This document shows positions 24,828 through 61,817 of a DNA stretch of 64,000 bases, piece after piece. Position numbers and translations under genes: made by a program. A model generated the notes under the pieces. The model was not told the origin of the DNA. It did not search any database and saw nothing but the letters and a program-made list of their open reading frames with translations. The first letter of the stretch is position 1. Every line of letters begins with the position of its first letter. Source of the stretch: a virus; IMG/VR virus record IMGVR_UViG_3300032241_002679, positions 62,001 to 126,000 of that record, one strand, 5' to 3'.

Positions 24828-26633
24828 TTAATCTATTAAAAATCTATCGATACTTTCTATCAAACGTTCCTTTTTGATAATTCTGTTTTCTACGTATGGT
24901 TTTGATTCTTCACGATTTTTAAATACCCATGACCCTGGCGTACTTGGAGCAGTAACAACATCCCAACAAATCAATTCAAAGTCATCTTGTACAATTAAAT
25001 CACCCTTGACTTCTTTAAGACTACCAACACCCCTTGATGATACACCAATCATTATATTATGACGTAATAAATCTGCTACTAAATCTCCTTTAGTAGATAC
25101 TATACCATAAGTCTGATATCCTTTAGTCATGAGGATTTCCATCTTACCCATTAGGGTATGATCCTCCCACCATGTTTCAATAATATTGTGTGAAATTCTA
25201 TCCGCTGAAATAACGCTTGATTCTGGGTGGTCACAATTATGTGTCCATGCAGATGCGTTGTTATATCTCATAAGCCATGTGTTATTAGGTACAGAGACAC
25301 AATAAACATTATCATTAATTTTTTCTAATTCTGCTTTTATAAACCTATTATCTAATGATATACTTGAAGAATTTTTTTCGGATACTATATACAATGGTTT
25401 TGAATTAGAGGCTAATATCTTTCTTTTAATTTTTTTACTTATGACTGAAACAGTTCCATTTTCATCCTCAACTTCATTTTCAACTTCATTATCAATAATG
25501 TACCTATCAGTTTGTATTCTAGTATTAATTGAAGCACCACTACCTAATTTTAATATTATTTCATAGACATCATCAGCTAATTTTTTGGATGTTGTATAAT
25601 ACTCTCTGAGTAGTTCTCCCTTCAAATTATGCCTATTTCTTCCGTCACCCATTAACAACCATTCAAATAATATATTTAATATTTCAACACTCCAATTTTT
25701 AGCATAATTTGGAATATACTTTTCCCAAGAATTTCCTAAAACTTTTAAATGTTCATATAAATTTTTATCTGTTATAATGAATTGTCTATTATTTGATACC
25801 CTATATTTAAATGGTAATCTATTAAGTAGCTCTATTAATTTTTCTTGTTGAACTGATTTGGTCTGTGTTATAATAACATTATTTATAGTTTTACCGCCAC
25901 GGCTACCAGAAGTATGCCCCTCAGCAATAAAAATACCTAAAAATGCAGCCCAATCTTTTATATCTATTTTAATATCTGTATTTGGTAAAATGAAAAATTC
26001 TTCATTTTTACCATTCCAATTACCACCATAATGAATAGAGGAATGAGATAATGTAGAATTTTTATTTTTCAATTTCTCATAAAATTCAATAGCTGTTAAT
26101 TCATATGGTTTATTATACCTATCCCAAAGAATCATTTTATGGTTCTTTGTTAATTTCATATCTAAAGAACATTTTTTATTATATATGTGAACTAATTCGT
26201 CATTATATTTTTTTTCAATTGTATATGAAATTGGCTGTAATTCAATCTCATTTTTATTTACATTAAGTGTAAAAATTTTCTCACCAGCTACAACATCTGT
26301 TATATTTTTCCAGCCAGTACTTGTCAATATTTCTGTGTCTCTGGTAACACATTCACCGACAGCTCTTCTTTCTCTTATATTTTGTTGATAAATTTCATTC
26401 TGTTTTCTTAGAATATCTTCTGGATATATTCTACCGTTACGGTTTTTTACATTGTATTTTTGAAGAACGACATATACTATTAATTTGTCTGAAGTACTAG
26501 ATTTTAAATCTATTTTTTCAAATTCACGTATAATATTTTTATTTCTTTCATCCAATGGTGAAATAAACCCTGCATCCCCTTCAATTAAAAATCCATAACC
26601 AGTTTCATTAGCCTTTAATATTTTTATATCCAT
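24828..26633 (-). CDS. Prohead maturation protease (gp21-like) interrupted by an intein
   Basis: The chosen start is the ATG at 26633 (MDIKILKANETG); an ATG 12 codons upstream reads through the ATATTTAT box. After removing a 372-residue intein, about 229 residues of protease remain. Joining the exteins gives RAVGE-CDHPES, which carries the catalytic His of the gp21/herpes assemblin-type fold (GExDHP), and IGVSSRGVGSL supplies the nucleophilic Ser. It would cut scaffold, capsid and internal proteins after (L/I)xE. The gene lies between a candidate core gene and the scaffold gene, as in T4. Confidence 0.9.
   Translation of the reverse strand: MDIKILKANETGYGFLIEGDAGFISPLDERNKNIIREFEKIDLKSSTSDKLIVYVVLQKYNVKNRNGRIYPEDILRKQNEIYQQNIRERRAVGECVTRDTEILTSTGWKNITDVVAGEKIFTLNVNKNEIELQPISYTIEKKYNDELVHIYNKKCSLDMKLTKNHKMILWDRYNKPYELTAIEFYEKLKNKNSTLSHSSIHYGGNWNGKNEEFFILPNTDIKIDIKDWAAFLGIFIAEGHTSGSRGGKTINNVIITQTKSVQQEKLIELLNRLPFKYRVSNNRQFIITDKNLYEHLKVLGNSWEKYIPNYAKNWSVEILNILFEWLLMGDGRNRHNLKGELLREYYTTSKKLADDVYEIILKLGSGASINTRIQTDRYIIDNEVENEVEDENGTVSVISKKIKRKILASNSKPLYIVSEKNSSSISLDNRFIKAELEKINDNVYCVSVPNNTWLMRYNNASAWTHNCDHPESSVISADRISHNIIETWWEDHTLMGKMEILMTKGYQTYGIVSTKGDLVADLLRHNIMIGVSSRGVGSLKEVKGDLIVQDDFELICWDVVTAPSTPGSWVFKNREESKPYVENRIIKKERLIESIDRFLID
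25236..26351 (-). mobile_element. LAGLIDADG intein in the prohead protease
   Basis: The intein has 372 residues. It starts CVTRDTEILTSTGWKNI (Cys1, block A) and ends in NNASAWTHN before Cys+1 (block G His-Asn-Cys). Block F is VYCVSV. The endonuclease part has LGIFIAEGHTSG and WLLMGDGRN, the paired LAGLIDADG-type motifs. The insertion point is two residues before the catalytic His of the protease. Confidence 0.92.
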
Positions 26634-26649
26634 AGATAATTTTATTATA

Positions 26650-26658
26650 ATAAATATG
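26650..26658 (-). promoter_or_regulatory. ATATTTAT box before the prohead protease
   Basis: CATATTTAT on the minus strand, 24 bp (first A to ATG) before the start at 26633. Confidence 0.5.
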
Positions 26659-26674
26659 CTAATGGACATAAAAA

Positions 26675-26698: not shown

Positions 26699-26721
26699 AA
26701 TTTTTAATTTTTATTTTATCT

Positions 26722-27216: not shown

Positions 27217-27561
27217 TTATTTCATTTTTGCCCAATAAATAATAATAAACCCCATTACAATTTGAATAAAAGTTATAATAGCAATAGTAGCAACCCATTT
27301 ATTCTTTTGTTTATAAATTTCGTCTTTTGCTTCTTTCATTTGTATTGGTGACCATACATCAGTCACTTTCTCAATCCATAATTTTTGGTCTATTACCAAT
27401 CTTTCAGTATTTTTTAAATCAGATAGTGTTGAAGTCATTTCTTGAAAACGAGTATCTATTTCTTCTCTCATTTTCTCATAATTATCATTTAATCTTTCTA
27501 GTTCCTTTAATACTAATTTGCTGTAATCACCCCACGTTTCATTTTTTTCTGGCGTTGACAT
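27217..27561 (-). CDS. Coiled-coil protein with C-terminal membrane anchor
   Basis: In this 114-residue protein a long charged helix (KELERLNDNYEKMREEIDTR and onward) is followed by a single C-terminal hydrophobic segment, WVATIAIITFIQIVMGFIII. The topology is that of a tail-anchored protein with a cytoplasmic coiled coil. A lysis or membrane-docking role during head assembly is possible but there is no direct evidence. The neighbour upstream ends 2 bp away. Confidence 0.6.
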   Translation of the reverse strand: MSTPEKNETWGDYSKLVLKELERLNDNYEKMREEIDTRFQEMTSTLSDLKNTERLVIDQKLWIEKVTDVWSPIQMKEAKDEIYKQKNKWVATIAIITFIQIVMGFIIIYWAKMK

Positions 27562-27562
27562 G

Positions 27563-27805
27563 TTAAGTAAATTTAAATCTATTTAATATTATTTGTATTT
27601 TAGAACAAATTTTTTCATAACATTTAAGCCTAATTTCTTTATCAGTATTCAGACTCGGATTTTCAGTTTCTAAAACTTTTTTTATTTCATTAATTACATT
27701 TTTATACTTTTCCTCTTCATCATGCTCAGTTTTTTCATACTGACAAATTCTGTCTGATAACTCTTTTAATTTTAAAATATTTGTATTTGAGAAATTAGAA
27801 ACCAT
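27563..27805 (-). CDS. Hypothetical helical protein
   Basis: This 80-residue protein is largely helical and charged (LKELSDRICQYEKTEHDEEE, NEIKKVLETENPSLN). No family is recognised. It is packed 2 bp from the tail-anchored protein and 14 bp from the next gene, so it belongs to the head-gene operon. Confidence 0.55.
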   Translation of the reverse strand: MVSNFSNTNILKLKELSDRICQYEKTEHDEEEKYKNVINEIKKVLETENPSLNTDKEIRLKCYEKICSKIQIILNRFKFT

Positions 27806-27819
27806 AGTATTATAATTTT

Positions 27820-28587
27820 TTAATTAATAAGATTATTTTTAAGATCAATTAATTTTATTATTTTTTCAAGTAATTGATTTTCATTAATATTTTTATCTTT
27901 TAATAATTTTTCTTTTACTTTTATTAATTTATCCTTTGATTCTTCATTTGTATTTTCCAATAAATTATTTACCAATTCAAGACATTCATTAACGGTTTTA
28001 TTATAATATTCTTTTTTAGAATTTAAATCAGAATTTAATAACACTTTTAATAGTTCTTTATCCTCTAAATCTAAATCAGCATATTTTTCATTATATTTCT
28101 CAACCATTATCTTTGTTATAAGACTATTTGGTAAATCAATACTTTCATTAATTTTTGGTAATTCATTATTATTAATATAATTAATAATATTTTTAAGTTC
28201 ATTAGTTATTTTGTCTACATTGTTAGCATTAGATTCCGTTAATATTAAATAAGATAATGATTCATGAAGTTTATTATCCTCAGTTTTATTTAATTTTTTA
28301 TTCTCCAATAAATTTAATAATTTTTTATTTTCCTCTAAAATATCATGAACTTTATATTTTTTTAAAATTTTAATATTTTCTGATACATATAGTGCAGCAG
28401 AATTAAAATCTTTCTCTATCTTAGTTTCAATATTATTATAGACTAAAAACTGATCTTTTAATATTTCACTTTCTTTTATAGTCTTTAAATATTTTTTAAA
28501 AAGATTTTTGCTCTTCTTATCCTTTTTTATAATTCCGTCAATAAGAATATTATTGAAAATTGTCTTTATATTACCAAAATCTTGCAT
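27820..28587 (-). CDS. Putative prohead core protein (position of gp67/gp68)
   Basis: The 255-residue, Lys/Glu/Asn/Leu-rich protein is almost wholly helical (KKYLKTIKESEILKDQFLVY, LIKVKEKLLKDKNINENQLL). In T4, genes between the portal (20) and protease (21) encode the prohead core proteins gp67 and gp68; this gene holds that position. Internal LHE, LTE and INE triplets could be protease sites. The role is inferred from location and composition, not similarity. Confidence 0.4.
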   Translation of the reverse strand: MQDFGNIKTIFNNILIDGIIKKDKKSKNLFKKYLKTIKESEILKDQFLVYNNIETKIEKDFNSAALYVSENIKILKKYKVHDILEENKKLLNLLENKKLNKTEDNKLHESLSYLILTESNANNVDKITNELKNIINYINNNELPKINESIDLPNSLITKIMVEKYNEKYADLDLEDKELLKVLLNSDLNSKKEYYNKTVNECLELVNNLLENTNEESKDKLIKVKEKLLKDKNINENQLLEKIIKLIDLKNNLIN

Positions 28588-28606
28588 TTTAAATTATTTA
28601 TATTTA

Positions 28607-28615
28607 ATAAATATC
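28607..28615 (-). promoter_or_regulatory. ATATTTAT box
   Basis: GATATTTAT on the minus strand, 27 bp before the ATG at 28587. Confidence 0.45.
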
Positions 28616-28633
28616 ATTATTAGATTAAAAGAA

Positions 28634-31600
28634 TTATTCACTCTCTAACATATCATCTATTTCCCTTATCATTGTATTTACACTCTCATTAATATGTACG
28701 TTTTTATCATAAATTTTAACCTTTTCAATTGGTTTAGGTTCATTATCAACCATTTCAATTAACTTATTAACAAATAACCCCTTATATTTTTCAGTTCTTT
28801 CATTTAATTTTTTGGAGATTTTTTCTTTCTCCTCTTTAAGAAGGTTTTCGATTTTTTTAATATTTTCAGCCGTTGGTGGTGCTTCAGTCTCTGGTTTTTC
28901 TGCCCCAGCAGCTTCAGCAGCCCCAGCTTCAGGGCCACCAGCCTCAGCAGCTCCAGCTTCAGGACCACCAGCTCCAGCCGCTTCAGCTCCTTCGGTTTCT
29001 TCTGTACCCTCTGCTCCAAAATTTAAATCGGCTTCAGTAGTTCCACCACCACCAAATCCACCGCCTCCACCACTGAATCCGCCACTAGGTTCTTTTCCTT
29101 CTTCAGTACCTCCTGTACCCCCTTCAAGTGCTTTATTCATATCGCCATATATTCTATCAACCGTATCAAACATACCAGTATGTTTAATAACACTTGCAGA
29201 ATTTGCGAGTTCCGCAGCAGCAGCTTTTTCCATACGCTGTTCTAATAGATCTTGTTTAATTTCATTATCAGGCCATCCAAATATTTCTCTTCTGGCTCTT
29301 GTCATACTCATTGCGCCAAAACCATTACCAGCATCACTAACAGCATCTTTATATAATGTAACTTTTAATTGCATATGTTCAACCTTAAGCATTTCTGCTT
29401 GTGTTGACGGATTATTTAATGTTATTGTGAAATTATCCAACTCATCTTCAAATCCCAATAAATACAAATGAATAATTATAACCTTATTTAATTCTTGAAG
29501 CATCGATTGTTGAATTCTATTAATTGTTCTTGAGAAACGTATATCTTGAAGTGCTAAATTTTTACCCTCACCAGTAGTTTCATCAAAGCCTAAAAATGGT
29601 TTAGGTACTCTCAATGCTGTGAATAATTTTTTCTGAAGATACTCAATATCTGCAATCTGATCCAAATTAGAATTTTTTACATAAATACCTGATTCTAAAG
29701 CAAATGTGTGGTTTTTATTAAATTTTTCCTCACCATCAACAGTAATTGTACCTGTATCTTGTGTGTCATCTAACCATTCAATATTAATTATTTTATGATT
29801 ATATAATTCTATTTTATTTTCTTTTTCAATATAGTATTTCCAAGCCCTAACATTTTTATATCCTAATTCTTCAGCAGTTATTTTACACCATTGACGATAA
29901 TTTTTAAAACCACGTTGTTTAAGCATTTTTTCTAAATGATTATGCGTAAATTCATTTAGATTTGTTAATGCGCTTCGTATATTTGTATTATTACTTCTAA
30001 ATTCATTAATAAAAGTTTCATTTGAATTTAAAACAGATAATGTTAGATCAGCTCTACCTAATTTATTATATTCCCCTAAAAACATATCATATAATTTATC
30101 ACTAAATATTATATTCTGATTTTTAGAAAAAACACGTTTTTTATACCCCTCTTTTTTCCATTGCTCTGAAGCAATTTTAGAAAATTTCTCTTTAAATTCT
30201 AATGTTGATTTAACATTACTAATTGCTTTTCCCCTTAATGAAATTATATCATTTTTATTTGGGTTATCATCAAATGTTTTTTTAGCTTTATTTCTAGATT
30301 TTATTGAATTATTTTTAGAATTGTTTGCCCTAAATATTTTTTCTTCTTTGGTTAAATTACTAATATATTTATTTATTCCATTAGTTATTTTTTCTTTATT
30401 TAATTCTGGATTAGCCCAAATAGTTTCTTTTATAACTGATTGATGATATCTCATATGATCACCACCGTTCATCCAAACTATATTATCTGGATTATTATTA
30501 AATCTATTATGATCCCTATGATGTCTAATTTTTTTATCACTGTCACTATATTTTTCATCGAAAATAAATTCCTTTATTAAACCAAATTTATCTAGTTTAT
30601 CGGTAACTAATCGATGTGTAAATATCCATTCTTGTTTATTTGAATCCCATGTTCTATGATATTCTCCGTTTGTGTTTGATTTAATTTTGGCTGTATCACT
30701 ATAAAATGGCATTAAACTATCACCAATATTTAAATGTTGTGCTTCAACAAATCCGTTTGTTCTATGAACAAACTTATGATCTGGTGTGGCTATAACTTCC
30801 TTACCATTATCGAGTGTTATTTTTAATACTTGTGTATTTTTACGTGTAATCCCAGCCCATGTAATTGGGCCTATAGTTGATTCACCAGTGTTAGGGTTGA
30901 CAGAATACACCCACATATTCTTATTTCCATTATCCCATTCTTTAATAATTTCTTGTAATTCAAGGATTCTTCCGTCAAGTAATGGTATACGTGTATTCAA
31001 AGCAAGGCATGCACCTGGCAATGTATCAATGGGACTTGGCGCATCTTCAGTTCTAACGGGAATAAAATAATCCTGATCGTTCGAATTTCTTAAGAATGAA
31101 CCACTTACGGATACATTATTTTCATAATCTAATGATAAAGCTGCAAAATTATGTCTATCATTCTCCCCATTTGGACCAACTACGGTCATGCAATACACAT
31201 CATCACCTCCAACTATTTCAATAGATTTAACTTTATGATTTTTACTATGTGAATTAATGTAATCGGTTATTGTTTCAAAACCCTCTTCAATTAATAATCT
31301 TTCTATGACAGTACGCTCAATTTTACGTTGACGATGTAATCTTCTATTAGTATTTATCGAAATAATATGATTTAATTGCTCATCCTCATTTAAAAATTCT
31401 ACTAAAGTTTTTCTATTTTTTATTTTTTTATTGATAATATTTTTTCTAATTAATTCCCAAATAATAGAATCAAATTTAATTTGCATTGCTTTAGACCTAA
31501 CTTTTTTCTTTTCTGGATTAGACCAATCTTTTAACTGAGCATCTTTCCTTAGGATATTATGTTGAGTATGTAAATCAGAATGATTATATTCGATAAATGT

Positions 31601-33211
31601 ACTAGCCCAATCTTGTTCTTTGGCTAATTCAATATTTCTAATACGTTTTTTTTCAGATTTATTATATTCTATTAGTTTTGGCACAACTTTATTATATAAT
31701 CCATTTTTCCATTTGGTTTTCATTAATTCTTTATGATAGTTTTGATGCTCATGCCAATTAGTCCATAAAAGATTTTCTGGGTTATTGTTTTTAGAATTAA
31801 AATCTATATGGTGAATGGTATTATTATTTTCTCCTAAATTACTAATTTCCTTTGCTACAAATCTATGCGTAAATTCATATTTTCCAGTTTTAGGATTAAA
31901 TACTCTATAATACTTGCTAGCATTTGGTGTAGTGGTAAATGCTTTTTCATCACGATAAAAAGGCATTAAGGAATCATTTTCTTTTAATTCATCAGCTCTT
32001 TTATGAGAACCATCTCTCAATATAAACGGATGTTCTGGTGCTGTTGTTATATGTGTATTATCATCTAGCCATATTTTGATCATTTTTTCTGCTGTATAGT
32101 TTTTTCCACACCATTTAACTTTACCGCCAACAAGTTGGTGGGTTTTATCGTTAATTGAGTGAACCCAATTTTCTTTACCCTCATCATATTCTTTAGCTAG
32201 TTCTTCTATTGTAAGTGTCCTACCATCTAATAAGGGTATAGGTGTATTTTTCCATACGGGAAGTTGATTATATCTCAAATCAACTTGACCAGTTTGAGGA
32301 TCAACCATTGGTGTACGTTTAAATCTATTTGCAATTTCATTTACATATGACTCAACGTCTTTATCATCTATATTACCTACATATATTTTATATATCCTTC
32401 TTTCAGGTGCTCTAGTAACACGATAAACAAGCATGGCATCTTCAGACAATAAAAGTTGTTTCCAAATTCTACGTGCTTTTTCTAATAAACTTGTGCCATA
32501 TGGCAATCTACGATCATCGCCAAATATTCTAAAATGTGCTATTTGCCAAGAATTAAATTCAACATCTCTACCACGCCAATAAAATTTAACTTTATCTGCT
32601 TTATAATCTTCATTCATTCTTTGTGTAAGAATATCATATAATGCGCCATCCCTACGTTCCATTTCATAATTAGGCATTTGTTTAGCGCCTACAATACCAT
32701 TTTTTTCATCAATATGCAAGAAAACAAAATTATCGCCATATTTTACAGTATTTCTAGTCCACATTGGAAGTGAGGTATGAATATCTAATCTATTAAATAA
32801 TAAATCTTCAATTATGCCTTTTACTCTTTTACTATCAGAATAAACATTAACCATACGACCATTATTATTTAATGTCGTACTTTCTTCCATAAAAATATCT
32901 AAAGCTGCGGCTATTTCTGGATAAAATTCCATTGCCTCAAAGTCTGAATAAGAACCAATCCTTGTTGTTTCATAATTAACAGCTTGTTGAAAAAGACCAT
33001 GTTCTACTTTTTTCCAAACTTGGCCTAAATATTTATTCTGTTGAGCTTGTAATTTTGCTATTTCATATTCTTTCTTATCAGTTGTTTTAAGAAGAACATC
33101 ATTATTCATCTTATATCTCTGAGTCTGTTGTTGGGTCTGTTTAATTTTAAAACCATCAGGGCCTAATATTTGCCCTAATTTTTGAAATATTGTTAAATTA
33201 TTTTTTGCCAT
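28634..33211 (-). CDS. Portal vertex protein (gp20-like) with two inteins
   Basis: The primary product is 1525 residues; removing inteins of 392 and 446 residues leaves about 687. Portal signatures are in all three exteins: YSDFEAMEFYPEIAAALDIF and RNTVKYGDNFVFLHID in the first, DQDYFIPVRTEDAPSPIDTL in the short middle one, and QIADIEYLQKKLFTALRVPK then EGKNLALQDIRFSRTI in the last. These match the gp20 core, including the DxEYxQKKL helix. The C-terminal ~200 residues add Gly-rich and Ala/Glu-rich tracts. The portal forms the dodecameric DNA channel and head-tail joint. Confidence 0.93.
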   Translation of the reverse strand: MAKNNLTIFQKLGQILGPDGFKIKQTQQQTQRYKMNNDVLLKTTDKKEYEIAKLQAQQNKYLGQVWKKVEHGLFQQAVNYETTRIGSYSDFEAMEFYPEIAAALDIFMEESTTLNNNGRMVNVYSDSKRVKGIIEDLLFNRLDIHTSLPMWTRNTVKYGDNFVFLHIDEKNGIVGAKQMPNYEMERRDGALYDILTQRMNEDYKADKVKFYWRGRDVEFNSWQIAHFRIFGDDRRLPYGTSLLEKARRIWKQLLLSEDAMLVYRVTRAPERRIYKIYVGNIDDKDVESYVNEIANRFKRTPMVDPQTGQVDLRYNQLPVWKNTPIPLLDGRTLTIEELAKEYDEGKENWVHSINDKTHQLVGGKVKWCGKNYTAEKMIKIWLDDNTHITTAPEHPFILRDGSHKRADELKENDSLMPFYRDEKAFTTTPNASKYYRVFNPKTGKYEFTHRFVAKEISNLGENNNTIHHIDFNSKNNNPENLLWTNWHEHQNYHKELMKTKWKNGLYNKVVPKLIEYNKSEKKRIRNIELAKEQDWASTFIEYNHSDLHTQHNILRKDAQLKDWSNPEKKKVRSKAMQIKFDSIIWELIRKNIINKKIKNRKTLVEFLNEDEQLNHIISINTNRRLHRQRKIERTVIERLLIEEGFETITDYINSHSKNHKVKSIEIVGGDDVYCMTVVGPNGENDRHNFAALSLDYENNVSVSGSFLRNSNDQDYFIPVRTEDAPSPIDTLPGACLALNTRIPLLDGRILELQEIIKEWDNGNKNMWVYSVNPNTGESTIGPITWAGITRKNTQVLKITLDNGKEVIATPDHKFVHRTNGFVEAQHLNIGDSLMPFYSDTAKIKSNTNGEYHRTWDSNKQEWIFTHRLVTDKLDKFGLIKEFIFDEKYSDSDKKIRHHRDHNRFNNNPDNIVWMNGGDHMRYHQSVIKETIWANPELNKEKITNGINKYISNLTKEEKIFRANNSKNNSIKSRNKAKKTFDDNPNKNDIISLRGKAISNVKSTLEFKEKFSKIASEQWKKEGYKKRVFSKNQNIIFSDKLYDMFLGEYNKLGRADLTLSVLNSNETFINEFRSNNTNIRSALTNLNEFTHNHLEKMLKQRGFKNYRQWCKITAEELGYKNVRAWKYYIEKENKIELYNHKIINIEWLDDTQDTGTITVDGEEKFNKNHTFALESGIYVKNSNLDQIADIEYLQKKLFTALRVPKPFLGFDETTGEGKNLALQDIRFSRTINRIQQSMLQELNKVIIIHLYLLGFEDELDNFTITLNNPSTQAEMLKVEHMQLKVTLYKDAVSDAGNGFGAMSMTRARREIFGWPDNEIKQDLLEQRMEKAAAAELANSASVIKHTGMFDTVDRIYGDMNKALEGGTGGTEEGKEPSGGFSGGGGGFGGGGTTEADLNFGAEGTEETEGAEAAGAGGPEAGAAEAGGPEAGAAEAAGAEKPETEAPPTAENIKKIENLLKEEKEKISKKLNERTEKYKGLFVNKLIEMVDNEPKPIEKVKIYDKNVHINESVNTMIREIDDMLESE
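29672..31009 (-). mobile_element. HNH intein 2 in the portal gene
   Basis: The intein has 446 residues. It begins CLALNTRIPLLDGR (Cys1 after LPGA) and ends FALESGIYVKN before Ser+1 (SNLDQ). The HNH motif is RHHRDHNRFNNNPDNIVWM then DHMRYH. The C-terminal junction lacks the usual penultimate His (KN). It is related to portal intein 1 and to the intein in the papain-like protease by a shared SLMPFY...FTHR region. Confidence 0.9.
31085..32260 (-). mobile_element. HNH intein 1 in the portal gene, non-canonical N-terminus
   Basis: The intein has 392 residues if splicing joins RYNQL to SNDQDYF. Block A reads NTPIPLLDGRTLTIEEL, which places Pro, not Cys or Ser, at position 1 (32258-32260). Block F contains VYCMTV with a Cys, and block G ends GSFLRN before Ser+1, without the usual His. 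HNH residues are in IHHIDFNSKNNNPENLLW and EHQNYH. The lack of an N-terminal nucleophile recalls class 3 inteins, though the block G Thr of that class is not seen. Confidence 0.8.
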
Positions 33212-33521: not shown

Positions 33522-36500
33522 TTATCTAGCGCCACTAAATAACCACATATATTGTCCAGTTGGATCTTGCATATTTTTTGCTACAATTGGACTAAAATTT
33601 GGTCTTTCTGTCTGTTTTTTATATCTATTATTATTTGATACAAAACCATGTCCCTTCATTCTATCATTTATAATTTCATTAGGACTATTTGGACTAATCC
33701 AACTGCTTAACATTGCTTTTGTCTGTTTTTCAAGTCTTTCAAGATTTTTAAAAGAATGTTCCAATACCCACAAACACATTGCCATTGCAAAAATTAAATC
33801 GTCATGATAACCATCCATATGGTCTGGCCTTCCATTTTTAAATACAAACGTTTTCATTTCTGAAATCATTCTAATTGATTTAATTTTTACTAAATTATTT
33901 CTGACTTTTTCTTCGAAGTTTGATATCATCTGTAGACGTATGCTACTTACTTGAAGGCCTGGTACTTTATTATCTTTTTTAAATGTTTCCATTTGTTTTT
34001 GCTTACTTGATAATATTTTACCATTTGGAGTATCGTAATGAAGTCTCTTGTAATCAAATTCCAATAATTTTAAAACAGTAGAGACACCCATACCACCAGT
34101 AATATCCACAATTGTATAGGCCTTATATAATTCACCATATTCCTCAACTAATTGAGCCAATAAGTCTGGCTGTATTTTACCTTGATATTCCATAACTTGT
34201 TCCATGGTTGTGAAGTCCAATATTACTATTGTTGATGAATCCTCACCATCTCCACGACTTACGTCAACCCCCATGATGTATTGATGCCCCTCTTCTGGCT
34301 TCTTCCAAATCCATATTTCATTCTCACTACCATCAATAAAAAGAGGGTCCTCGACATTAAATTTTTTCTGTTCTTCAATTATTTCTTCACTAATGACATT
34401 ACCACCACTACCAATAAATGATACATCCAATTCCTGTGCGATCATTTTAGCATCATTATTCATACCACGACACATCTCCTCATACCATGAAGATGTTGGT
34501 TTATACCCATTTAATATTTTATTATTATATGACTCAAATGTAAATTCAAATTCCTCTATTATTTCATCACCCTTAATCCATTTTAAATCTTTATTATATC
34601 TCAGATCCTCATACCATTTCATTTCAATTATATTGAAATTATTTTTTTTAGCTTTAGACTGAGCATATGTCTCATAATATAACTTATCCATACCATTTGG
34701 TGTGGATATAAGGGTAGCTTTTCCTCCAGTATTATGGCTTATAATACCATTACTAATAAAAGAATTGGTTTCTGGCACATGTAAATCATAGGTATAGTTT
34801 TCAGATTTTGAAATTTCAATAATTTCATCAACATAAAAATTTTTATTAATTTCTACTTTTCTATTTATATTATCTAATATTGGATGTTTTATTTTCTCAT
34901 TAAGCTTATCAATTGCGTTATATGTTAAACGACTGTATTTTGAATTCCAAAATCTTTCTAAAAATCTAACTTTATATTTTGGAATTTTATTATCTGATAG
35001 TACAGTTTCTATCTCTCTTTTTTTAACAAAAACAAATCGTTTATTTTTAATTTTATTAATTAAAAATTTTTTCTTTTCTTGTTTTCTCTCCAATCTAAAA
35101 CCGATCTCATCATAAAATTTTATTGCGTTATTTGAATATATGTATAAATTATAAATTTCTGTTATATGTTCTTTATTTAATATAATTGAAGACTGGCTAG
35201 TTTTTTGATTTTCTTTTTTTATTCTAGAAATAATACCAAAATTTAACAATAATATTTGTAGTTTTTTAGCTAAATCATGCGATGTAGTTGAATACTTTAC
35301 TTCTTTTACTGTTGAGCAACCATCCCCATCAAATAATCCCTGTAAAAATGATTTTATAACGTTCTTACTTGATTTCAAAATACAACTTGGTATTGTTTTA
35401 TCTCTAGCATTATGTTTTTTAAACCCATAGTATTCTAGCCATGCAACTAATTTTTTTGAGCTTAAATAATAATGATATTCTCTAGACTTTTTAAACCCAC
35501 GACCTAATTTTGAGCCATCGTTAATTAGAAAATCTTGTATCTTTTTATCACCATTAGTAATTACAATTCCACCTTTCTGAAAATTACCCTCAGCAACAAA
35601 TAATCCTAATAAATAAGCAAAATCTAAATTATTATTTAAATTCGTTGGAATATTAATTTCCTTTTCGTTTATAGTTGGTTTATAATCAAAATCATATAAA
35701 AAATCGCCAAAATAGTTTTGATTATATTGTACTATTGGCATATCGCCAACCTTAAGTTCATTAAATCTAACCCATTTATTAATTTCATTATCACTAATGT
35801 ATATGGGATGTTTCCAACTACCTTCTAATTCAAGACCTAATTTTGTTTTAATTTTATAGGTTTCCCCGTATTCCGAAACAAATGTCTGGGTAACATCAGT
35901 AAGCTTTCCATACATATCACATACTTTATGCGGAGTTTCTAAAGTTGTAAAACCAATTTGTTTTTTTTCTTTAACCAATTCATCTAATTCTATTAACCCC
36001 TCCTTTGTTAAGATTAATGATTCTTTAGTTAAACAACCTAAAGCAGTCAGAGCAGCACCAAATACAATAGCCCCGTTATCAATATAGGCGGCTTCATCCA
36101 TTACTAGATATGTCGGTGTAAAACCACGAAGAGCATCCTTTGATGTAGCAACGGCTTTAATTCTACTACCATTTGGTAATCTAATTTCTTTTTTAGAATC
36201 AGTGATAAAAATTGTTTTTTCCTCATTACGACTATTGCCATAATATTCTGGCCCCCATACCCAACGTGGAAGTTGTGATACAAAATCTTTAATTTTAGCT
36301 AAAAATTCAAAAGCTAGTTCTTGTTTATTGGCAATAATTAGAACAGCTTCAGGATTTTCATCATCTGCAAATGCCGCTTTTATAGCGAGATATGCAGCGG
36401 TTGTTGTAGATACACCAGCTTGACGTGGTTTTGTAATTAAATTAAAACGTTCTTTTTCGTATGAAAAAATAATTTCTTTTTGTCTTGGAAATAGTTTAAA

Positions 36501-36614
36501 AGGTACAAATCCTTCTTGTGTTTTGTCAAATGTCTCTAAATAAGTCTCAATTGCATAAATTGGACTGGATAAACATTTGGCGTATTCTCTTATTATTTCC
36601 TCTCTAGTGAGCAT
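33522..36614 (-). CDS. Large terminase subunit (gp17-like) with intein
   Basis: The primary product is 1030 residues; removing a 435-residue intein leaves 595, close to T4 gp17 (610). The ATPase part has KPRQAGVSTTTAAY (a Walker A variant of the KxRQxGxST type, with Val where P-loop Lys is usual), TYLVMDEAAY (Walker B) and TLISTPNG (motif III). The nuclease part has YIMGVDVSRGDGEDSSTI, AYTIVDITGG and DGYHDDLIFAMAM for metal-binding Asp residues. It packages DNA through the portal. The intein splits the protein just before motif III. Confidence 0.93.
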   Translation of the reverse strand: MLTREEIIREYAKCLSSPIYAIETYLETFDKTQEGFVPFKLFPRQKEIIFSYEKERFNLITKPRQAGVSTTTAAYLAIKAAFADDENPEAVLIIANKQELAFEFLAKIKDFVSQLPRWVWGPEYYGNSRNEEKTIFITDSKKEIRLPNGSRIKAVATSKDALRGFTPTYLVMDEAAYIDNGAIVFGAALTALGCLTKESLILTKEGLIELDELVKEKKQIGFTTLETPHKVCDMYGKLTDVTQTFVSEYGETYKIKTKLGLELEGSWKHPIYISDNEINKWVRFNELKVGDMPIVQYNQNYFGDFLYDFDYKPTINEKEINIPTNLNNNLDFAYLLGLFVAEGNFQKGGIVITNGDKKIQDFLINDGSKLGRGFKKSREYHYYLSSKKLVAWLEYYGFKKHNARDKTIPSCILKSSKNVIKSFLQGLFDGDGCSTVKEVKYSTTSHDLAKKLQILLLNFGIISRIKKENQKTSQSSIILNKEHITEIYNLYIYSNNAIKFYDEIGFRLERKQEKKKFLINKIKNKRFVFVKKREIETVLSDNKIPKYKVRFLERFWNSKYSRLTYNAIDKLNEKIKHPILDNINRKVEINKNFYVDEIIEISKSENYTYDLHVPETNSFISNGIISHNTGGKATLISTPNGMDKLYYETYAQSKAKKNNFNIIEMKWYEDLRYNKDLKWIKGDEIIEEFEFTFESYNNKILNGYKPTSSWYEEMCRGMNNDAKMIAQELDVSFIGSGGNVISEEIIEEQKKFNVEDPLFIDGSENEIWIWKKPEEGHQYIMGVDVSRGDGEDSSTIVILDFTTMEQVMEYQGKIQPDLLAQLVEEYGELYKAYTIVDITGGMGVSTVLKLLEFDYKRLHYDTPNGKILSSKQKQMETFKKDNKVPGLQVSSIRLQMISNFEEKVRNNLVKIKSIRMISEMKTFVFKNGRPDHMDGYHDDLIFAMAMCLWVLEHSFKNLERLEKQTKAMLSSWISPNSPNEIINDRMKGHGFVSNNNRYKKQTERPNFSPIVAKNMQDPTGQYMWLFSGAR
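34731..36035 (-). mobile_element. LAGLIDADG intein in the large terminase
   Basis: The intein has 435 residues, from CLTKESLILTKEGLIELDEL (Cys1 after ALTALG) to NSFISNGIISHN before Thr+1 (TGGKATLIS). LAGLIDADG-type motifs are LLGLFVAEGNF and LQGLFDGDGCS. Block B is GSWKHPIYI. Confidence 0.93.
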
Positions 36615-45198: not shown

Positions 45199-45214
45199 AA
45201 TCTTTTATTTTAAT

Positions 45215-45223
45215 ATAAATATC
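45215..45223 (-). promoter_or_regulatory. ATATTTAT box
   Basis: GATATTTAT on the minus strand, 24 bp before the ATG at 45198. Confidence 0.5.
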
Positions 45224-45241
45224 TGTTTTTCTTATTAAAGT

Positions 45242-45487: not shown

Positions 45488-45502
45488 ATTCTAATTTTTA
45501 TT

Positions 45503-45511
45503 ATAAATATT
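45503..45511 (-). promoter_or_regulatory. ATATTTAT box
   Basis: Minus-strand AATATTTAT, 23 bp before the ATG at 45487. Confidence 0.5.
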
Positions 45512-45523
45512 CAATAAAAATAA

Positions 45524-45549
45524 AAAAAGCATCTAAAAAGATGCTTTTT
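45524..45549 (-). terminator. Terminator hairpin
   Basis: AAAAGCATCT / AGATGCTTTT around a 4-base A loop, downstream of the gene ending at 45577. Confidence 0.8.
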
Positions 45550-45576
45550 GAAAAATAAGATGTTTATTTTTATAAG

Positions 45577-46320: not shown

Positions 46321-46327
46321 ATATATA

Positions 46328-47053: not shown

Positions 47054-47093
47054 GTTTAAATTTTTAATGAAAAATATCTTATTTATGTATAAT

Positions 47094-47124
47094 CAAATAT
47101 ACATAATATATTCATAAAAGTCAA
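47094..47124 (-). promoter_or_regulatory. Bacteroidota-type promoter
   Basis: On the minus strand TTG (47122-47124, within TTGACT), 20-bp spacer, TATATTTG (47094-47101), a perfect TAnnTTTG. It precedes the VWA gene with a leader of about 35 bases. Confidence 0.65.
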
Positions 47125-47129
47125 GTAAA

Positions 47130-47885
47130 TTATAAAGAAAAAACACTGAAATTGTTATCAAAATCCAGCAAAATAGCGGTTCTATTTTCAACCCAATCGC
47201 CACTATTTAAATAGTGTGAGTTATTTATTATACGGTCAGCTGGCTGATGTATATGGCCACAAATAACGCCATAACAATTATTTTTTTGTGCCATTTTAAT
47301 AGCATTGATTTCAAAATCATTTATATAGTTTGTAGCAGATTTAACACCAGATTTAATATCCTTTGATATCGATTTATATGGTAATTTTTTCCATTCACGA
47401 TATCTATTATACCATCTATTAATCCATAATGCTAAATCATAGCCAATACTTCCTATTTTAGCAAGCCATTTATACTTAGTTATAAAGACATCTATTACAT
47501 CACCATGAAAAATATAATAATGTTTGGGGATCATTGTGTCATAACTATCCCATACAAAATTTTCTAATCTATAATCTTCACAAATTTCAATATTTCCCAA
47601 TTTAGAACCAATAAAATCTTTTAAAAAATCATCGTGATTTCCACGAATCCAAACGACATTTGTTTTTTTTGAATATTTAAGAAGTTTTGCGATAACTTTA
47701 ATGTGATGGTTTTTTAATTTTGAACCTCTTTTAATAGCCCAACCATCAATAATATCACCATTTAATATTAATAAATCGGTTGAATGTGTTTCCAAAAATT
47801 GTAAAAATTCTTTAGCTTTTGAATCTTTAGTACCTAAATGTAAATCAGATACAATAATAGCTTTATATTTATTTTTTATTTCCAA
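47130..47885 (-). CDS. Calcineurin-like phosphoesterase (LpxH-like)
   Basis: The 251-residue protein has all metallophosphoesterase motifs: IVSDLHLGT, LNGDIIDGW, WIRGNHDDF, FHGDVIDVF and CGHIHQPAD. The arrangement is that of the UDP-2,3-diacylglucosamine hydrolase (LpxH) branch found in Bacteroidota. The substrate in the phage is not known; cyclic or sugar-nucleotide phosphates and lipid precursors are all possible. The start overlaps the end of the glycosyltransferase gene by 10 bp. Confidence 0.85.
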   Translation of the reverse strand: MEIKNKYKAIIVSDLHLGTKDSKAKEFLQFLETHSTDLLILNGDIIDGWAIKRGSKLKNHHIKVIAKLLKYSKKTNVVWIRGNHDDFLKDFIGSKLGNIEICEDYRLENFVWDSYDTMIPKHYYIFHGDVIDVFITKYKWLAKIGSIGYDLALWINRWYNRYREWKKLPYKSISKDIKSGVKSATNYINDFEINAIKMAQKNNCYGVICGHIHQPADRIINNSHYLNSGDWVENRTAILLDFDNNFSVFSL

Positions 47886-48575: not shown

Positions 48576-50522
48576 TTATTTTATTAATGATATTGTCCAG
48601 AAGTCACTTGCGTAGTCTGAACTACATAAATATGAAGCTGGTATTTTAAAATAACCGCCTAATCCCCAATTAGTACCCCAAGAATTACGCATCATGAACA
48701 TATCTTCTTCTTTAATATAACCGACAACAGCTATTGCATGACCACCTACCATACTCTCAGTATTAATATCTGGCATTGGTACAATACCAGTCTGAGCAAC
48801 TTCTTGACTCATAAAACTTTCAAAGACACTTATGCCACAACTAATTGGAAATCCCTGTAATAAAGCATTAACTAATAATTGTTTATTTGTGTTATCGATA
48901 GATTTATATTGCAATGCCTCAAATTGTTTAGCTGAATTAATTGCTTCATCACTCGGTTTAATAGTAAATTGATTAATATTGTATGGCCATAAATCCTCAG
49001 ATGAAACACCATTTTGAGCTATTACTTTAATTCCATCACGAATAACGGCACCAGCATCACTATTAACAGTTCCTTCCATGAGTCTTTCAAAATAATAAAT
49101 AAAAAGTCTTGATGGTTGAAATGGAGTTTGATTTAGTGTAGTATGTTTATTTAACAAATCAAAATGTACCAAAAAAGCAAGTGAATTAGCTGTACAATTA
49201 TGTACAAAAACACCAGACTCTAAGGCAAAATTATGGTACTTATCAACTGTTAAGCAATAAACATCAATTTTTTTATCTAGTTTTTTTATATTAACTATTT
49301 TATGGTTATAATTTATTGCGGACTCCTCAAGTTCTTCTATTGAATTAAAGAATTTTTCTATCGTTGTAAACTTGTAAAAATTATGTATACCACTACTTTC
49401 TTTTTTTTCTAACCAATTTTTTTCGTTAATTTCTTTGTTTTCATCAATTAATTCTTTAGCCCATTTGACCAATAATTTCTTTGTCGTATTTTTTCCTAAA
49501 TATGTTTTTCCTAAATTAATATATTTTTCTTTATTAAAATCATTACTCAATAGATTGGCCATTACTTTTTTTCCATTGATAATTTGTCTTTCTTTAATTT
49601 CAGGATTTTTTAAAGTATTTTTTAATGTTTTATTAGCCTTATCTCTTGACTCTTTAGTATGGCCAATTAATAAATTATTTTTAATTTGTTCTAATCTTTT
49701 AGGTTCATTTTTTGCTTTTTCCCAAGCCATTTTGCCACCCTTAGAACAATTTTCTAAATTCCACTCTGGATTTTTTTCATATCTCTCTTGCATTATTTTT
49801 CTCGAATGTTCTCTTTGAGCATCAGTACCGTTCCAACTAGTATTATGAAATATTTTATGTTCGTTTTCACCCATCCATTCTAAATTATCTGGTGTATTAT
49901 CAAATTTATTAAAATTTTTATGGTGTGTAACTAAATATTTATCTGATTTTTCCTCTATCCTTTCTTTAACAATTTTTTTATAACCTAAATTTATTTTTTC
50001 GTTTATCGTAGTATGTACATATTTCCATTTATTTAAATTATTATCAAAATATTGTTCATAACCAAGAGGACCGACTTTTAGATAGTTCGGCATTAAGGAT
50101 TCATTTGGCATTATATCTATAACTCTTTTAAAGCTACCATCCCTCATCATAAATTCATGGTCAGGGGTACAAATAATTTTAGCCCCATTATCTAGAGTAA
50201 CTTCAACGACTTCTTTATTTTTACCAGTTAAATTAGCCCTAGCTTTACCAGCAGTTAATGAACCATTTTCATCGGCTGAATATACATAAAAATCTTTTCC
50301 GTTTTCATAAAGTTCTTTAAGTGTTTTTATTGTCCCATCAAGTAATTTAATTTTAGTTTCACCAGCAAAACATGAACCTAATTGTCCTTGGTCATAAGGC
50401 GTTGGTAATACATACTTATCTGATAATAAAACTGTCTGTATTGGCTTTAAAAGCTCTACACTGAATTTAATGTCACGAGGATCTGGTTTTTGTGGTAACC
50501 AACCCAATTTTTTCTGTATCAT
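48576..50522 (-). CDS. Papain-like (C1A) cysteine protease interrupted by an intein at the catalytic Cys
   Basis: The primary product is 648 residues; the spliced form would be 256. Joined exteins read DQGQLGS-CTANSLAFLVHF, the papain active-site helix, with Cys443 (intein +1) as nucleophile. VGGHAIAVVGY gives His595 and MRNSWGTNWG gives Asn613. No signal peptide or inhibitory prodomain is evident, so it probably acts inside the cell or the virion. It could process host or phage proteins. It has its own ATATTTAT box. Confidence 0.9.
   Translation of the reverse strand: MIQKKLGWLPQKPDPRDIKFSVELLKPIQTVLLSDKYVLPTPYDQGQLGSCFAGETKIKLLDGTIKTLKELYENGKDFYVYSADENGSLTAGKARANLTGKNKEVVEVTLDNGAKIICTPDHEFMMRDGSFKRVIDIMPNESLMPNYLKVGPLGYEQYFDNNLNKWKYVHTTINEKINLGYKKIVKERIEEKSDKYLVTHHKNFNKFDNTPDNLEWMGENEHKIFHNTSWNGTDAQREHSRKIMQERYEKNPEWNLENCSKGGKMAWEKAKNEPKRLEQIKNNLLIGHTKESRDKANKTLKNTLKNPEIKERQIINGKKVMANLLSNDFNKEKYINLGKTYLGKNTTKKLLVKWAKELIDENKEINEKNWLEKKESSGIHNFYKFTTIEKFFNSIEELEESAINYNHKIVNIKKLDKKIDVYCLTVDKYHNFALESGVFVHNCTANSLAFLVHFDLLNKHTTLNQTPFQPSRLFIYYFERLMEGTVNSDAGAVIRDGIKVIAQNGVSSEDLWPYNINQFTIKPSDEAINSAKQFEALQYKSIDNTNKQLLVNALLQGFPISCGISVFESFMSQEVAQTGIVPMPDINTESMVGGHAIAVVGYIKEEDMFMMRNSWGTNWGLGGYFKIPASYLCSSDYASDFWTISLIK
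49197..50372 (-). mobile_element. HNH intein in the papain-like protease
   Basis: The intein has 392 residues, from CFAGETKIKLLDGTIKTLKE (Cys1) to FALESGVFVHN before Cys+1. Block F is VYCLTV. HNH residues are in THHKNFNKFDNTPDNLEWM and EHKIFH. Its SLMPNY...W.YVHT region and the FALESG(I/V)(Y/F)V end are close to portal intein 2. Confidence 0.93.
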
Positions 50523-58762: not shown

Positions 58763-58775
58763 TAAAAAATTAAAA

Positions 58776-61700
58776 ATGAATAGAGAAATCCTTCCAAAAG
58801 TAAAGTTGATTATTAATCAAGCTAGTAAGGAAGCTAAATCATTTGATGATATTAAAATAAAACCTGAACATATAGTTTTATCTATGATATCTCATGATGA
58901 TAATGAATGTATTAAAATATTAAAATCACTCAAAGTTGATATGGGTGATTTACATGATAAAATATCTGATTATTTAAGAAAAAATGATTTAACACCAAGA
59001 ATTTCGCAGTATGGTAGAAATAAACTACCTTTGTCCGATGAAACAAAAATAATATTTAAAAATGTTGATTCTGAGTGTGAAAAATTAAATGATGATGCTA
59101 TTGATACTCATCATTTAATGCTGAGCATTCTTAAAATAAAAACACCAATTACAAAAATCTTATTTGATGCTGGTGTTAATTACAGGAGCTTTAAAAAAAT
59201 AATTATGGACAACAGAAATGACATGCCAAAAGAAAACAATGTAAAAATGGAAAATGATTCAATGGATGATGATTTTCAAGAGCCTGAACGTTTTAAAAAG
59301 GTTAAAAAGAAAACTGATTCTAAAACGCCTATTCTTGATAATTTTTGTCGAGATATTAGTAAGGCTGTTGAAAAAGGCGCAATTGATCCAGTTGTAGGTA
59401 GGATCAAAGAAATAAAACGAATAAGCCAAATTCTATCCAGAAGGAAAAAAAATAATCCAGTATTGATTGGCGAACCTGGTGTCGGAAAGACAGCCATTGT
59501 TGAGGGATTGGCACAATTAATTAAAGATGGTAATGCACCACGTACTATAGCTAATAAAAAAGTATATAGTCTTGATTTAGCTAGTATTGTTGCTGGCACT
59601 AAATATCGTGGACAATTTGAAGAAAGAATGAAAGCTGTTTTGGAAGAGTGTAAAGCGAATACAGATATTATTTTATTCATTGATGAATTGCATACTATTA
59701 TTGGTGCTGGTAATGCCTCTGGTTCACTTGATGCAAGCAATATTTTTAAACCAGCTCTTGCACGTGGAGAAATACAAATCATTGGCGCAACTACACTTGA
59801 TGAATATCGTGAACATATTGAAAAGGATGGCGCACTTACAAGAAGATTTCAACAAGTATTAGTTGAGGAACCTTCTCTTGAAGAGACTAAAATAATTCTC
59901 ACTAATATTAAAGAAAAATATGAAAAACATCATAAAGTAGTATATACTGATGAGGCTATTGATGAATGCGTGAAATTATCACATCGCTATATAATGGAAC
60001 GCTCAATGCCAGATAAAGCTATTGATGTACTTGATGAAGCTGGAGCAGCTACAAATATAACTGTAGAAAAACCACAAATTATTAAGACATTAGAACAGAA
60101 AAAAATAGCACTCAATAATAAGAAAAAAGACGTAGTGCTTCAACAGAATTATGAAGAAGCTGCTAAGATACGTGATGAAGAAAAAAAGATAGATAATCAA
60201 CTCTTAAAGCATAATAAAGAATGGGCTGATAGCCTAGATAAAAAAATCACTACGGTTGGTGTGGAACAAATATCAGAAGTAGTCAGTATGATGACTGGTA
60301 TACCTCTTACTAAAATTTCTACACAAGAAAGCAAACGCCTATTGAACCTTGATAAAGAACTGATGGGTAAAGTAATTGGACAGGACGATGCAGTTTCAAA
60401 AGTAGTTAAAGCTATTAAAAGAAATAGAGTCGGTATTAAAGATAAAAATAAGCCCATTGGAAGCTTTATTTTTCTTGGCCCAACAGGTGTCGGTAAATGT
60501 TTTTTATCTGATACTAAGATAATTATAAGAAATAAAAAAACTAAATCAATCGAAGAAATTGATATTAATGAATTAAAAGATAGATTTGATGAGATACAAA
60601 AAAGAATTAAAAAAACTAATAATGTCTTATTGTTTGACAAGCATGAATTAGAATCATTAAAGAAAATTACCAAAACAACCAAAATAAGCGATTACGAGGT
60701 TTTAACTGACGATGGTTTTGTTGATATTGAAGCATTGCATGAAACAATACCATATGAGGTTTACCTTCTTAGGTTATCTGACGGAAAGGAACTTAAATGC
60801 GCTGATAATCATATTGTATTTTTAAATGATTATCAAGAAATATTTGTGAAAGATTTGCAAATTGGTGATAACGTTATCGTGGAATCAAACGAAACCACAG
60901 GATTGGCTAGTGTGCTCGAAGTAAAAAATTTGGGCTATGAAGAAGCAATGTATGATTTGGAATTAGCAGAAGATTCAAACAGACGATATTATACCAATGG
61001 AATATTGTCACATAATACGTATTTGGCCAAATTATTGGCAGAATTTGTCTTTGGAGATGTAGATGCTTTGGTTAAAATTGATATGAGTGAATATATGGAA
61101 AAACATTCTGTATCAAGACTAATTGGTTCTCCGCCAGGTTACGTTGGTTATGATCAAGGTGGCCAATTGACAGAAAAAGTACGTAGAAAACCACATTGTG
61201 TTATTCTTTTTGATGAAATTGAAAAGGCACATGAAGATGTATTCAATCTCTTATTACAATTATTGGATGAAGGTCAGTTGACAGATGGACTTGGAAGAAA
61301 AGTTAATTTTAAAAATTCATTAATTATACTTACGTCAAATTTAGGTGTTAAAGAAATTAATACTTTTGGTACATCAATAGGTTTCGAGACTACAGCTACC
61401 GTTGCTAGTGAAGAAGCTAGAGCTAGAGGAATAATTGAAAAAACACTCAAGAAAAAATTCAGACCAGAATTCCTAAATCGTATAGATGAGAGTATCATTT
61501 TCAATGAATTAAAAGAAGATGATATACATAAAATCATATACAAAGAATTGGAAAAGTTGGAGAACAGACTTAATGAAGTTCATTTTAAACTTAAAATTAA
61601 TAAAGCAGCCGTTGAATTCTTAGCGAAAGAGGGTTATAGTAAAGAATATGGTGCTAGACCATTGGGTAGAGCAATCCAGAAATATATCGAAGACCCAGTC

Positions 61701-61817
61701 GCTGACGAAATTCTGAGCGGAAGTATTACTGAGGGTGAAGTAATAAAAATTAATTTCGATAAGAATAAAAATGAAGTTATAATCAAACCAGATAGGAATA
61801 ATAAATCTGAAGACTAA
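58776..61817 (+). CDS. ClpC-like AAA+ unfoldase with a mini-intein
   Basis: The primary product is 1013 residues; the spliced form would be 840. An N-terminal double Clp repeat covers about residues 1-145. AAA domain 1 has LIGEPGVGKTA and ILFIDELHT. The linker has a UVR-like motif (QQNYEEAAKIRDEEKKIDNQ), which points to ClpC rather than ClpB. AAA domain 2 has FLGPTGVGK-TYLAKLL after splicing, HCVILFDEIEKAH and FRPEFLNRIDE. It would unfold proteins, alone or with host ClpP. The likely source is a host gene. It is expressed from a Bacteroidota-type promoter and followed by a terminator. Confidence 0.92.
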   Translation: MNREILPKVKLIINQASKEAKSFDDIKIKPEHIVLSMISHDDNECIKILKSLKVDMGDLHDKISDYLRKNDLTPRISQYGRNKLPLSDETKIIFKNVDSECEKLNDDAIDTHHLMLSILKIKTPITKILFDAGVNYRSFKKIIMDNRNDMPKENNVKMENDSMDDDFQEPERFKKVKKKTDSKTPILDNFCRDISKAVEKGAIDPVVGRIKEIKRISQILSRRKKNNPVLIGEPGVGKTAIVEGLAQLIKDGNAPRTIANKKVYSLDLASIVAGTKYRGQFEERMKAVLEECKANTDIILFIDELHTIIGAGNASGSLDASNIFKPALARGEIQIIGATTLDEYREHIEKDGALTRRFQQVLVEEPSLEETKIILTNIKEKYEKHHKVVYTDEAIDECVKLSHRYIMERSMPDKAIDVLDEAGAATNITVEKPQIIKTLEQKKIALNNKKKDVVLQQNYEEAAKIRDEEKKIDNQLLKHNKEWADSLDKKITTVGVEQISEVVSMMTGIPLTKISTQESKRLLNLDKELMGKVIGQDDAVSKVVKAIKRNRVGIKDKNKPIGSFIFLGPTGVGKCFLSDTKIIIRNKKTKSIEEIDINELKDRFDEIQKRIKKTNNVLLFDKHELESLKKITKTTKISDYEVLTDDGFVDIEALHETIPYEVYLLRLSDGKELKCADNHIVFLNDYQEIFVKDLQIGDNVIVESNETTGLASVLEVKNLGYEEAMYDLELAEDSNRRYYTNGILSHNTYLAKLLAEFVFGDVDALVKIDMSEYMEKHSVSRLIGSPPGYVGYDQGGQLTEKVRRKPHCVILFDEIEKAHEDVFNLLLQLLDEGQLTDGLGRKVNFKNSLIILTSNLGVKEINTFGTSIGFETTATVASEEARARGIIEKTLKKKFRPEFLNRIDESIIFNELKEDDIHKIIYKELEKLENRLNEVHFKLKINKAAVEFLAKEGYSKEYGARPLGRAIQKYIEDPVADEILSGSITEGEVIKINFDKNKNEVIIKPDRNNKSED
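60498..61016 (+). mobile_element. Mini-intein in the P-loop of ClpC domain 2
   Basis: The intein has 173 residues, from CFLSDTKIIIRNKKTKSIEE (Cys1) to YYTNGILSHN before Thr+1. Block B is LKCADNHIVFL and block F is AMYDLELAED. The middle (about residues 600-640) is a short charged helix with no endonuclease motif. It interrupts GPTGVGK|T, so ATP cannot bind domain 2 until splicing. Confidence 0.9.

Follow-up and report, generated by a model that had tools for sequence, protein, structure and literature searches.

Inteins in phage large terminase (TerL), portal and P-loop proteins are well known (PMC5050341). In crAss-like zeta phages, essential genes are interrupted by many splicing elements, with up to 14 introns and a published maximum of three inteins per genome (PMC7886860). 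Class 3 inteins are defined operationally by the absence of Cys1 and the presence of Cys at F:4 (PMC7891396). A single origin, in a phage gene, is reported for them (PMC4031507); direct descent from class 1 has been deemed unlikely, and engineering a class 1 intein into a class 3 intein of the WCT type failed (PMC7664689). For class 2, the only known examples are KlbA orthologues such as Mja KlbA, which have Ala1 and Cys+1, need Asp F:4 and Thr B:7, and have no penultimate His (PMC4031507).

The stretch analysed here (the window, 64,000 nucleotides) comprises bases 62001-126000 of a 141,843-bp virus record, IMGVR_UViG_3300032241_002679. Essential genes are interrupted in this record as in the crAss-like phages, but at least nine inteins can be read in its 141.8 kb, six in the window and three outside it; eight are contiguous and one is split (Table 1).

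Table 1. Intein-bearing genes, inteins and residues of interest. Positions refer to the window unless the record is named.
Feature	Position	Strand	Evidence
Prohead core protease (peptidase S77) gene, one intein	24828..26669	-	Pfam PF03420 E 1.8e-15, LAGLIDADG_3
Protease intein, 372 aa, LAGLIDADG, Cys1...THN|C	25236..26351	-	Model matches, intein-free relatives
T4-like portal (gp20) gene, two inteins	28634..33211	-	Pfam PF07230 E 4.9e-57; spliced junctions
Portal intein 2, 446 aa, class 1 (Cys1), HNH-type, TLPGA|C...VKN|SNL	29672..31009	-	Profile, junctions
25-aa extein separating the portal inteins, SNDQDYFIPVRTEDAPSPIDTLPGA	31010..31084	-	Junctions of relatives
Portal intein 1, 392 aa, Pro1 type, HNH, PVWKNT...DVYCMTV...SFLRN|S	31085..32260	-	Relatives, family alignment
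Cys357 of portal intein 1 (block F:4), candidate first nucleophile	31190..31192	-	Family alignment
HNH endonuclease core of portal intein 1	31757..31825	-	Pfam HNH_3 E 1.9e-4
Cys51 of portal intein 1; invariant in Pro1 family, Ala in class 1 sister portal inteins	32108..32110	-	Alignment
Pro1 codon of portal intein 1 (Cys/Ser expected)	32258..32260	-	Intein-free relatives, NQL|SNDQ
Large terminase (T4-like TerL) gene, one intein	33522..36614	-	Pfam PF03237 E 6.6e-7
TerL intein, 435 aa, LAGLIDADG, ALG|C...SHN|TGGKATLISTPNG	34731..36035	-	Domain match, intein-free relatives
Papain-like (C1) protease gene, one intein	48576..50522	-	Pfam PF00112 E 4.4e-15
Papain-protease intein, 392 aa, class 1 (Cys1), HNH-type, Cys at F:4 (VYCLTV)	49197..50372	-	NCBIfam profile, alignment
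Hsp100 chaperone (ClpC/ClpB-like) gene, one mini-intein	58776..61817	+	Profile matches
ClpC mini-intein, 173 aa, without endonuclease, in D2 Walker A (GVGK|T)	60498..61016	+	Alignment of relatives
SNF2-type helicase mini-intein, 154 aa, GEDR|CYRIGQ	record 18529-18990
LAGLIDADG intein, 377 aa, in probable glycosyltransferase	record 41918-43048
Split intein, IMPDH/GMP-reductase gene	G000 record 44962-47449 (L010 6962-9449)
Split IMPDH parts: N-part; endonuclease-like ORF (REase_MTES_1575-like); C-part	record to 45726; 45754-46800; 46778-46915

Inteins of the record and their intein-free relatives

Intein borders in the window were set by eye on the translated open frames of five genes, and the lengths of the six inserts are exactly those given in a preliminary description of this DNA. 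Intein models match all six (Pfam Intein_splicing, TIGR01445 for the N-terminal and TIGR01443 for the C-terminal part, and several NCBIfam intein-containing families). Blocks A, B, F and G are present with a C-terminal Asn and Cys, Ser or Thr at +1, and a block A nucleophile is missing only in portal intein 1, for which the earlier statement on block A needs correction. The endonuclease types are as had been described: LAGLIDADG_3 matches the protease (E 2.9e-7) and TerL (E 3.9e-22) inteins, HNH_3 matches portal intein 1, portal intein 2 and the papain intein are of HNH type by motif and homology only, and the ClpC insert has no endonuclease. Portal intein 2 and the papain intein have in common an HHxxxNxxNNxxxNL-like stretch and a match to the same NCBIfam profile. 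Insertion at catalytic or nucleotide-binding motifs, which had been claimed for most sites, is seen in the ClpC gene but not at the portal sites, which are conserved and have no known catalytic motif. The protease site (GE|CDHPES) adjoins a conserved DHP motif.

The intein density of the record is unusual. A Pfam intein search gave seven matches in the record compared to zero to five in 19 related records, several of which are fragments. The preliminary description had called the density exceptional, and it is high compared both to the related records and to the crAss-like maximum; the count of six is too low for the record, given the three inteins outside the window, which intein models match as well. 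No Pfam match was found for the extein of the probable glycosyltransferase that carries one of these three. A tenth intein was considered for three weak matches from a sweep of the record (126134-126817, 27369-30467 and 49067-49993) and rejected: none has intein blocks, and they read as a Walker A ATPase, a repeat-rich structural protein and a chance match, respectively.

A search of viral contigs with the C-terminal extein of TerL yielded 80 relatives with 68-82% identity, and TerL, portal and protease are uninterrupted in most of these roughly 80 close relatives. The spliced exteins of the three proteins can be aligned over their whole length to their nearest intein-free relatives (75-85% identity), and the junctions are ungapped (ALG|TGG in TerL, NQL|SND and PGA|SNL in the portal, GE|CDHPES in the protease). 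Similarly, the joined papain-like protease aligns as one piece, with 98% coverage, to an intein-free huge-phage protein, and in ClpC the joined extein can be aligned through GVGK|T to five relatives that lack the intein; ungapped joins are thus seen in all five interrupted genes of the window. In none of these comparisons did the segments appear as normal domains, the result that the preliminary description had named as contrary to its reading. The sequence and these alignments show the inserts to be inteins with exactly these borders.

The residue after the junction is not always that of the relatives. The +1 Cys of the protease stands where 9/9 intein-free relatives shown have Leu, and the +1 residue at the second portal site is Ser here compared to Ala, Gln, Thr or Ser in intein-free relatives, suggesting that intein acquisition can accompany a change of the +1 residue. 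In the papain-like protease, +1 is a catalytic-type Cys (GQLGS|CTANS; codon at window 49194-49196), as is the +1 nucleophile of the split IMPDH gene (codon at record 46916-46918). Since the nucleophile is in both cases the enzyme's own catalytic-type Cys, the unspliced papain-like protease and IMPDH are unlikely to be active.

Inteins also vary in their presence at a given site. TerL inteins start at the identical site in three relatives (L034, L060 and L076), split inteins occupy the ClpC and IMPDH sites in the related record G002, and portal genes with two or three inteins occur in several relatives. This pattern of presence and absence among close relatives is what homing predicts. Each intein would be translated inside its host protein, excise itself and join the exteins, and most carry or adjoin a homing endonuclease that would allow spread into intein-free alleles. 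No recent relatives of the papain intein were found in viral contigs. Since three essential head and packaging genes are interrupted, virion assembly would be expected to depend on several splicing events. With motor, portal and head protease all interrupted, the phage of this record would offer a system for studying whether splicing times virion assembly.

A portal intein family with proline at position 1

Portal intein 1 has Pro in place of the Cys or Ser that marks position 1 in class 1. Because intein-free relatives fix the junction (NQL|S), the first residue is truly Pro, and a misplaced N-terminal junction is ruled out. With Pro1, Ser+1 and Cys F:4, the intein also departs from the Ala1, Cys+1 and Asp F:4 of class 2. 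An AlphaFold2 model (pLDDT 86, pTM 0.76, splicing part mostly >90) has HINT inteins as its Foldseek matches, and portal intein 1 is predicted to have the HINT fold.

A search of viral contigs with portal intein 1 found eight loci. Besides its own allele, five distinct full-length alleles occur at the same site (counting L093/L094 and L096/L097 once each); they have 44-55% identity and all begin with Pro. A profile search gave 66 loci, and the sequences collected in all include 47 distinct complete members of 165-483 aa that form 43 clusters at 90% identity. The family is known only from T4-like portal genes of uncultivated phages, where it occupies three insertion sites: RYN[QP][LM]|P and variants, GGSY|P, and RN[TL]|P. 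At the RNT site, the record's own portal has the intein-free reading RNT|VKYGDN, compared to RNT|P...N|CKYGDN in intein carriers.

Four residues are present in 47/47 members: Pro1, the Cys of W-C-[GD] (residue 51), Cys F:4 and the C-terminal Asn (G:7). Position +1 is occupied by Ser, Thr or Cys, and a penultimate His, Trp B:12 and Thr G:5 were each found in 0/47. B:7 is mostly Ala, but the members at the RN[TL]|P site have Thr there and seem nearer to class 1; a few B:7 and B:12 letters in the residue tables are mis-parsed relative to the printed sequences. Both Cys residues were present in the seeds of the profile search, so their conservation is partly built in, while Pro1 was not in the seeds. 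Six RNT-site members that were found via TerL without an intein seed (L020, L032, L039, L045, L058 and L062) show Pro1 and both Cys residues.

The splicing domain of the family is under purifying selection, with dN/dS of about 0.08-0.18 in pairs with unsaturated dS (including L111/L114, L096/L112, L115/L120 and L095/L107). For L095/L107, dN is 0.074 in the splicing part compared to 0.486 in the endonuclease region. Furthermore, the portal open frame runs through the Pro1 insert in dozens of phages. Four members (L146, L154, L156 and L150) have a reduced homing endonuclease region and are only 165-173 aa long; such short forms would be convenient for structural studies and for developing tools.

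Among 50,697 sequenced phages there was no Pro1 relative; four records contain distant homologues, and those examined have Cys1. No description of Pro1 portal inteins was found in the open-access literature. As far as open papers and these sequenced phages show, the Pro1 non-WCT portal family is undescribed, and this family, rather than the presence of inteins in such phage genes, is what is new here. Pro at position 1 is not in itself a unique trait, as the WCT class 3 TerL intein of phage Violet also begins with Pro.

It should also be noted that several portal genes combine inteins. The portal gene of L123 (frame at 287, 1863 aa) has two Pro1 inteins at neighbouring positions, that of L168, which is filed under a Wolfebacteria MAG, has two Pro1 inteins and a Cys1 intein, and the L104/L094 portal has three inteins, namely a Ser1 intein, a Cys1 mini-intein and a Pro1 intein.

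Candidate nucleophiles and descent of the Pro1 inteins

Since residue 1 is Pro, the usual N-S shift is impossible as a first step in portal intein 1. Its likeliest route would be class-3-like: Cys357 would attack the Leu(-1)-Pro1 bond, the N-extein would then be transferred to Ser+1, Asn392 would cyclise without a penultimate His, and an acyl shift would join the portal exteins. Cys51 may assist. Its alignment counterpart in DnaE inteins is the His of the W-H-D segment, and this His has reportedly been linked to Asn cyclisation in a DnaE intein that has no penultimate His, so Cys51 may serve the C-terminal step. Taken as one explanation, we consider it probable that the record derives from a T4-related phage heavily colonised by mobile inteins, which would splice and home, and that portal intein 1 would splice through Cys357.

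Since the published operational definition asks for no Cys1 and for Cys F:4 (PMC7891396), the Pro1 family (47/47 members) already falls inside class 3 in this loose sense, but it lacks the Trp and Thr of the WCT signature throughout. With WCT inteins such as Msm DnaBi1, Mch DnaB1, mycobacteriophage TerL and AceL NrdHF, the family has in common the missing Cys1, Cys F:4, His B:10, a C-terminal Asn and Ser, Thr or Cys at +1. The WCT inteins have Trp B:12 and Thr G:5 (Met and Thr in AceL) and are mostly of LAGLIDADG type, whereas Pro1 inteins carry HNH or are mini-inteins and lie elsewhere in the tree. Class 1 HNH-type phage inteins (portal intein 2 in the same gene, and homologues in SP-15, LR756508 and CL131) resemble the Pro1 family in HINT fold, position of HNH and PLLDG-like block A neighbourhood, with 29-39% identity. 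They differ in having Cys1 or Ser1, mostly Thr B:7, and Ala or another residue at position 51; their F:4 residue is Asp, Thr or Cys.

The tree was built from a short alignment of the splicing domain without the trait columns (positions 1, 51, B:7, B:10, B:12, F:4 and G:5-7). It included eight WCT-type class 3 inteins from sequenced phages, found with a 69-aa bait; the analysis used the retrieved database sequences only. The Pro1 inteins form a clade (support 100/97) whose sister group is class 1 portal inteins, including portal intein 2 of the record (96/82). The next branch outward (98/92) holds the papain intein, L161 and CL131, all three of which have both Cys1 and Cys F:4, and WCT class 3 is a separate group (100/97). 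A tree without class 3 agrees on the placement of the Pro1 inteins.

This topology bears on the possibility that Pro1 inteins are ordinary class 3 inteins of the single known lineage, which later lost Trp B:12 and Thr G:5 and exchanged their endonuclease for HNH. Both groups lack Cys1, have Cys F:4 and have mostly lost Thr B:7. Departures from WCT are also on record, in 4.6% (T) and 6.1% (W) of class 3 inteins, with AceL NrdHF being MCT (PMC7891396), and an AU test of Pro1 and WCT class 3 as one clade gave p = 0.19, so that their union is not rejected. However, the tree nests the Pro1 inteins within class 1 HNH inteins with good support, and class 1 formed one side of a branch in 0/200 bootstrap trees. 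The PLLDG start, a W-x-G segment and the HNH domain are common to Pro1 and class 1 portal inteins, LAGLIDADG motifs occur in 82.5% of the published class 3 set (PMC7891396), and neither W nor T is found in any of the 47 Pro1 members. On balance, we regard descent from the WCT lineage as the less likely reading.

Our best reading is that the Pro1 family would represent a second, independent origin of class-3-like splicing. The route through Cys F:4 probably arose within the class 1 HNH lineage, independently of WCT class 3, several members of that lineage already having Cys F:4. We lean slightly towards the more specific view that Pro1 portal inteins are a separate mechanistic lineage derived from class 1 HNH phage inteins, in which Cys F:4 and/or Cys51 would replace Cys1 without the W and T. 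If true, inteins with a block F Cys and no N-terminal nucleophile would have originated more than once, in contradiction to a single origin of class 3 (PMC4031507) and to the view that descent from class 1 is unlikely (PMC7664689). Furthermore, a clade inside class 1 that lost Cys1 and kept Cys F:4, with near relatives that have both, would provide a series of intermediates for a change of splicing chemistry.

Which Cys acts first is a separate question. Cys51, rather than Cys F:4, could be the first nucleophile of an undescribed route: it tracks Pro1 in 47/47 members and is replaced by Ala in class 1 sister portal inteins, its segment aligns with W-H-D in DnaE inteins, and Cys F:4 is not specific to Pro1, some inteins (for example the papain intein) having it together with Cys1. 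However, action as first nucleophile is proven for Cys F:4 in class 3 inteins (PMC4031507, PMC7891396) and is without precedent for residue 51, and Cys51 may instead act in Asn cyclisation, the penultimate His being absent from all members. An initial attack by Cys51 is quite improbable in our view.

We find still less room for a class-2-like route, in which the +1 residue would attack the N-terminal junction directly. Such a route would fit the absence of Cys1 or Ser1, and class 2 likewise has no penultimate His. It is very unlikely for a family in which +1 varies among Ser (as in the window), Thr and Cys, and which has Cys F:4 and mostly Ala B:7 where class 2 needs Asp and Thr. Finally, that the Pro1 inserts are dead or only cleave, the phage tolerating a broken portal, would account for the missing standard nucleophile but is highly improbable: the portal is essential, the flanking exteins are conserved and undamaged, and purifying selection acts on the splicing domain in dozens of different sequences.

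Split inteins and a free-standing endonuclease-like frame

In the split IMPDH/GMP-reductase gene of the record, each half is an open reading frame with its own intein half, and the exteins join seamlessly at a catalytic-type Cys and match intact relatives. G002 (L200) has the same split arrangement. Split-intein 'fractured genes', including IMPDH with a free-standing endonuclease, were reportedly described by Dassa et al. in 2009. The gene seen here is alike in its order of N-half, endonuclease frame and C-half and in the meeting of the halves at the catalytic-type Cys (CLTT); it differs in lying in a T4-like phage record that has eight contiguous inteins besides.

Split inteins also interrupt ClpC in relatives. 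In L197 (G002:60300-65600) the split intein is at the same D2 Walker A site as the mini-intein of the window, with an endonuclease-like frame between the halves, and in L198 (G006:58200-61600) ClpC is fractured at the D1 Walker A site (GEPGVGK|C).

The window itself contains a free-standing endonuclease-like frame (DUF723, treble-clef DUF4379) at 62875-63777. It is flanked by near-duplicate acetyltransferase-like C-terminal segments (MGIG[VP]RFSDAIAQ...) at 62569-62814 and 63736-63984, which suggests an insertion that duplicated the end of its target gene.
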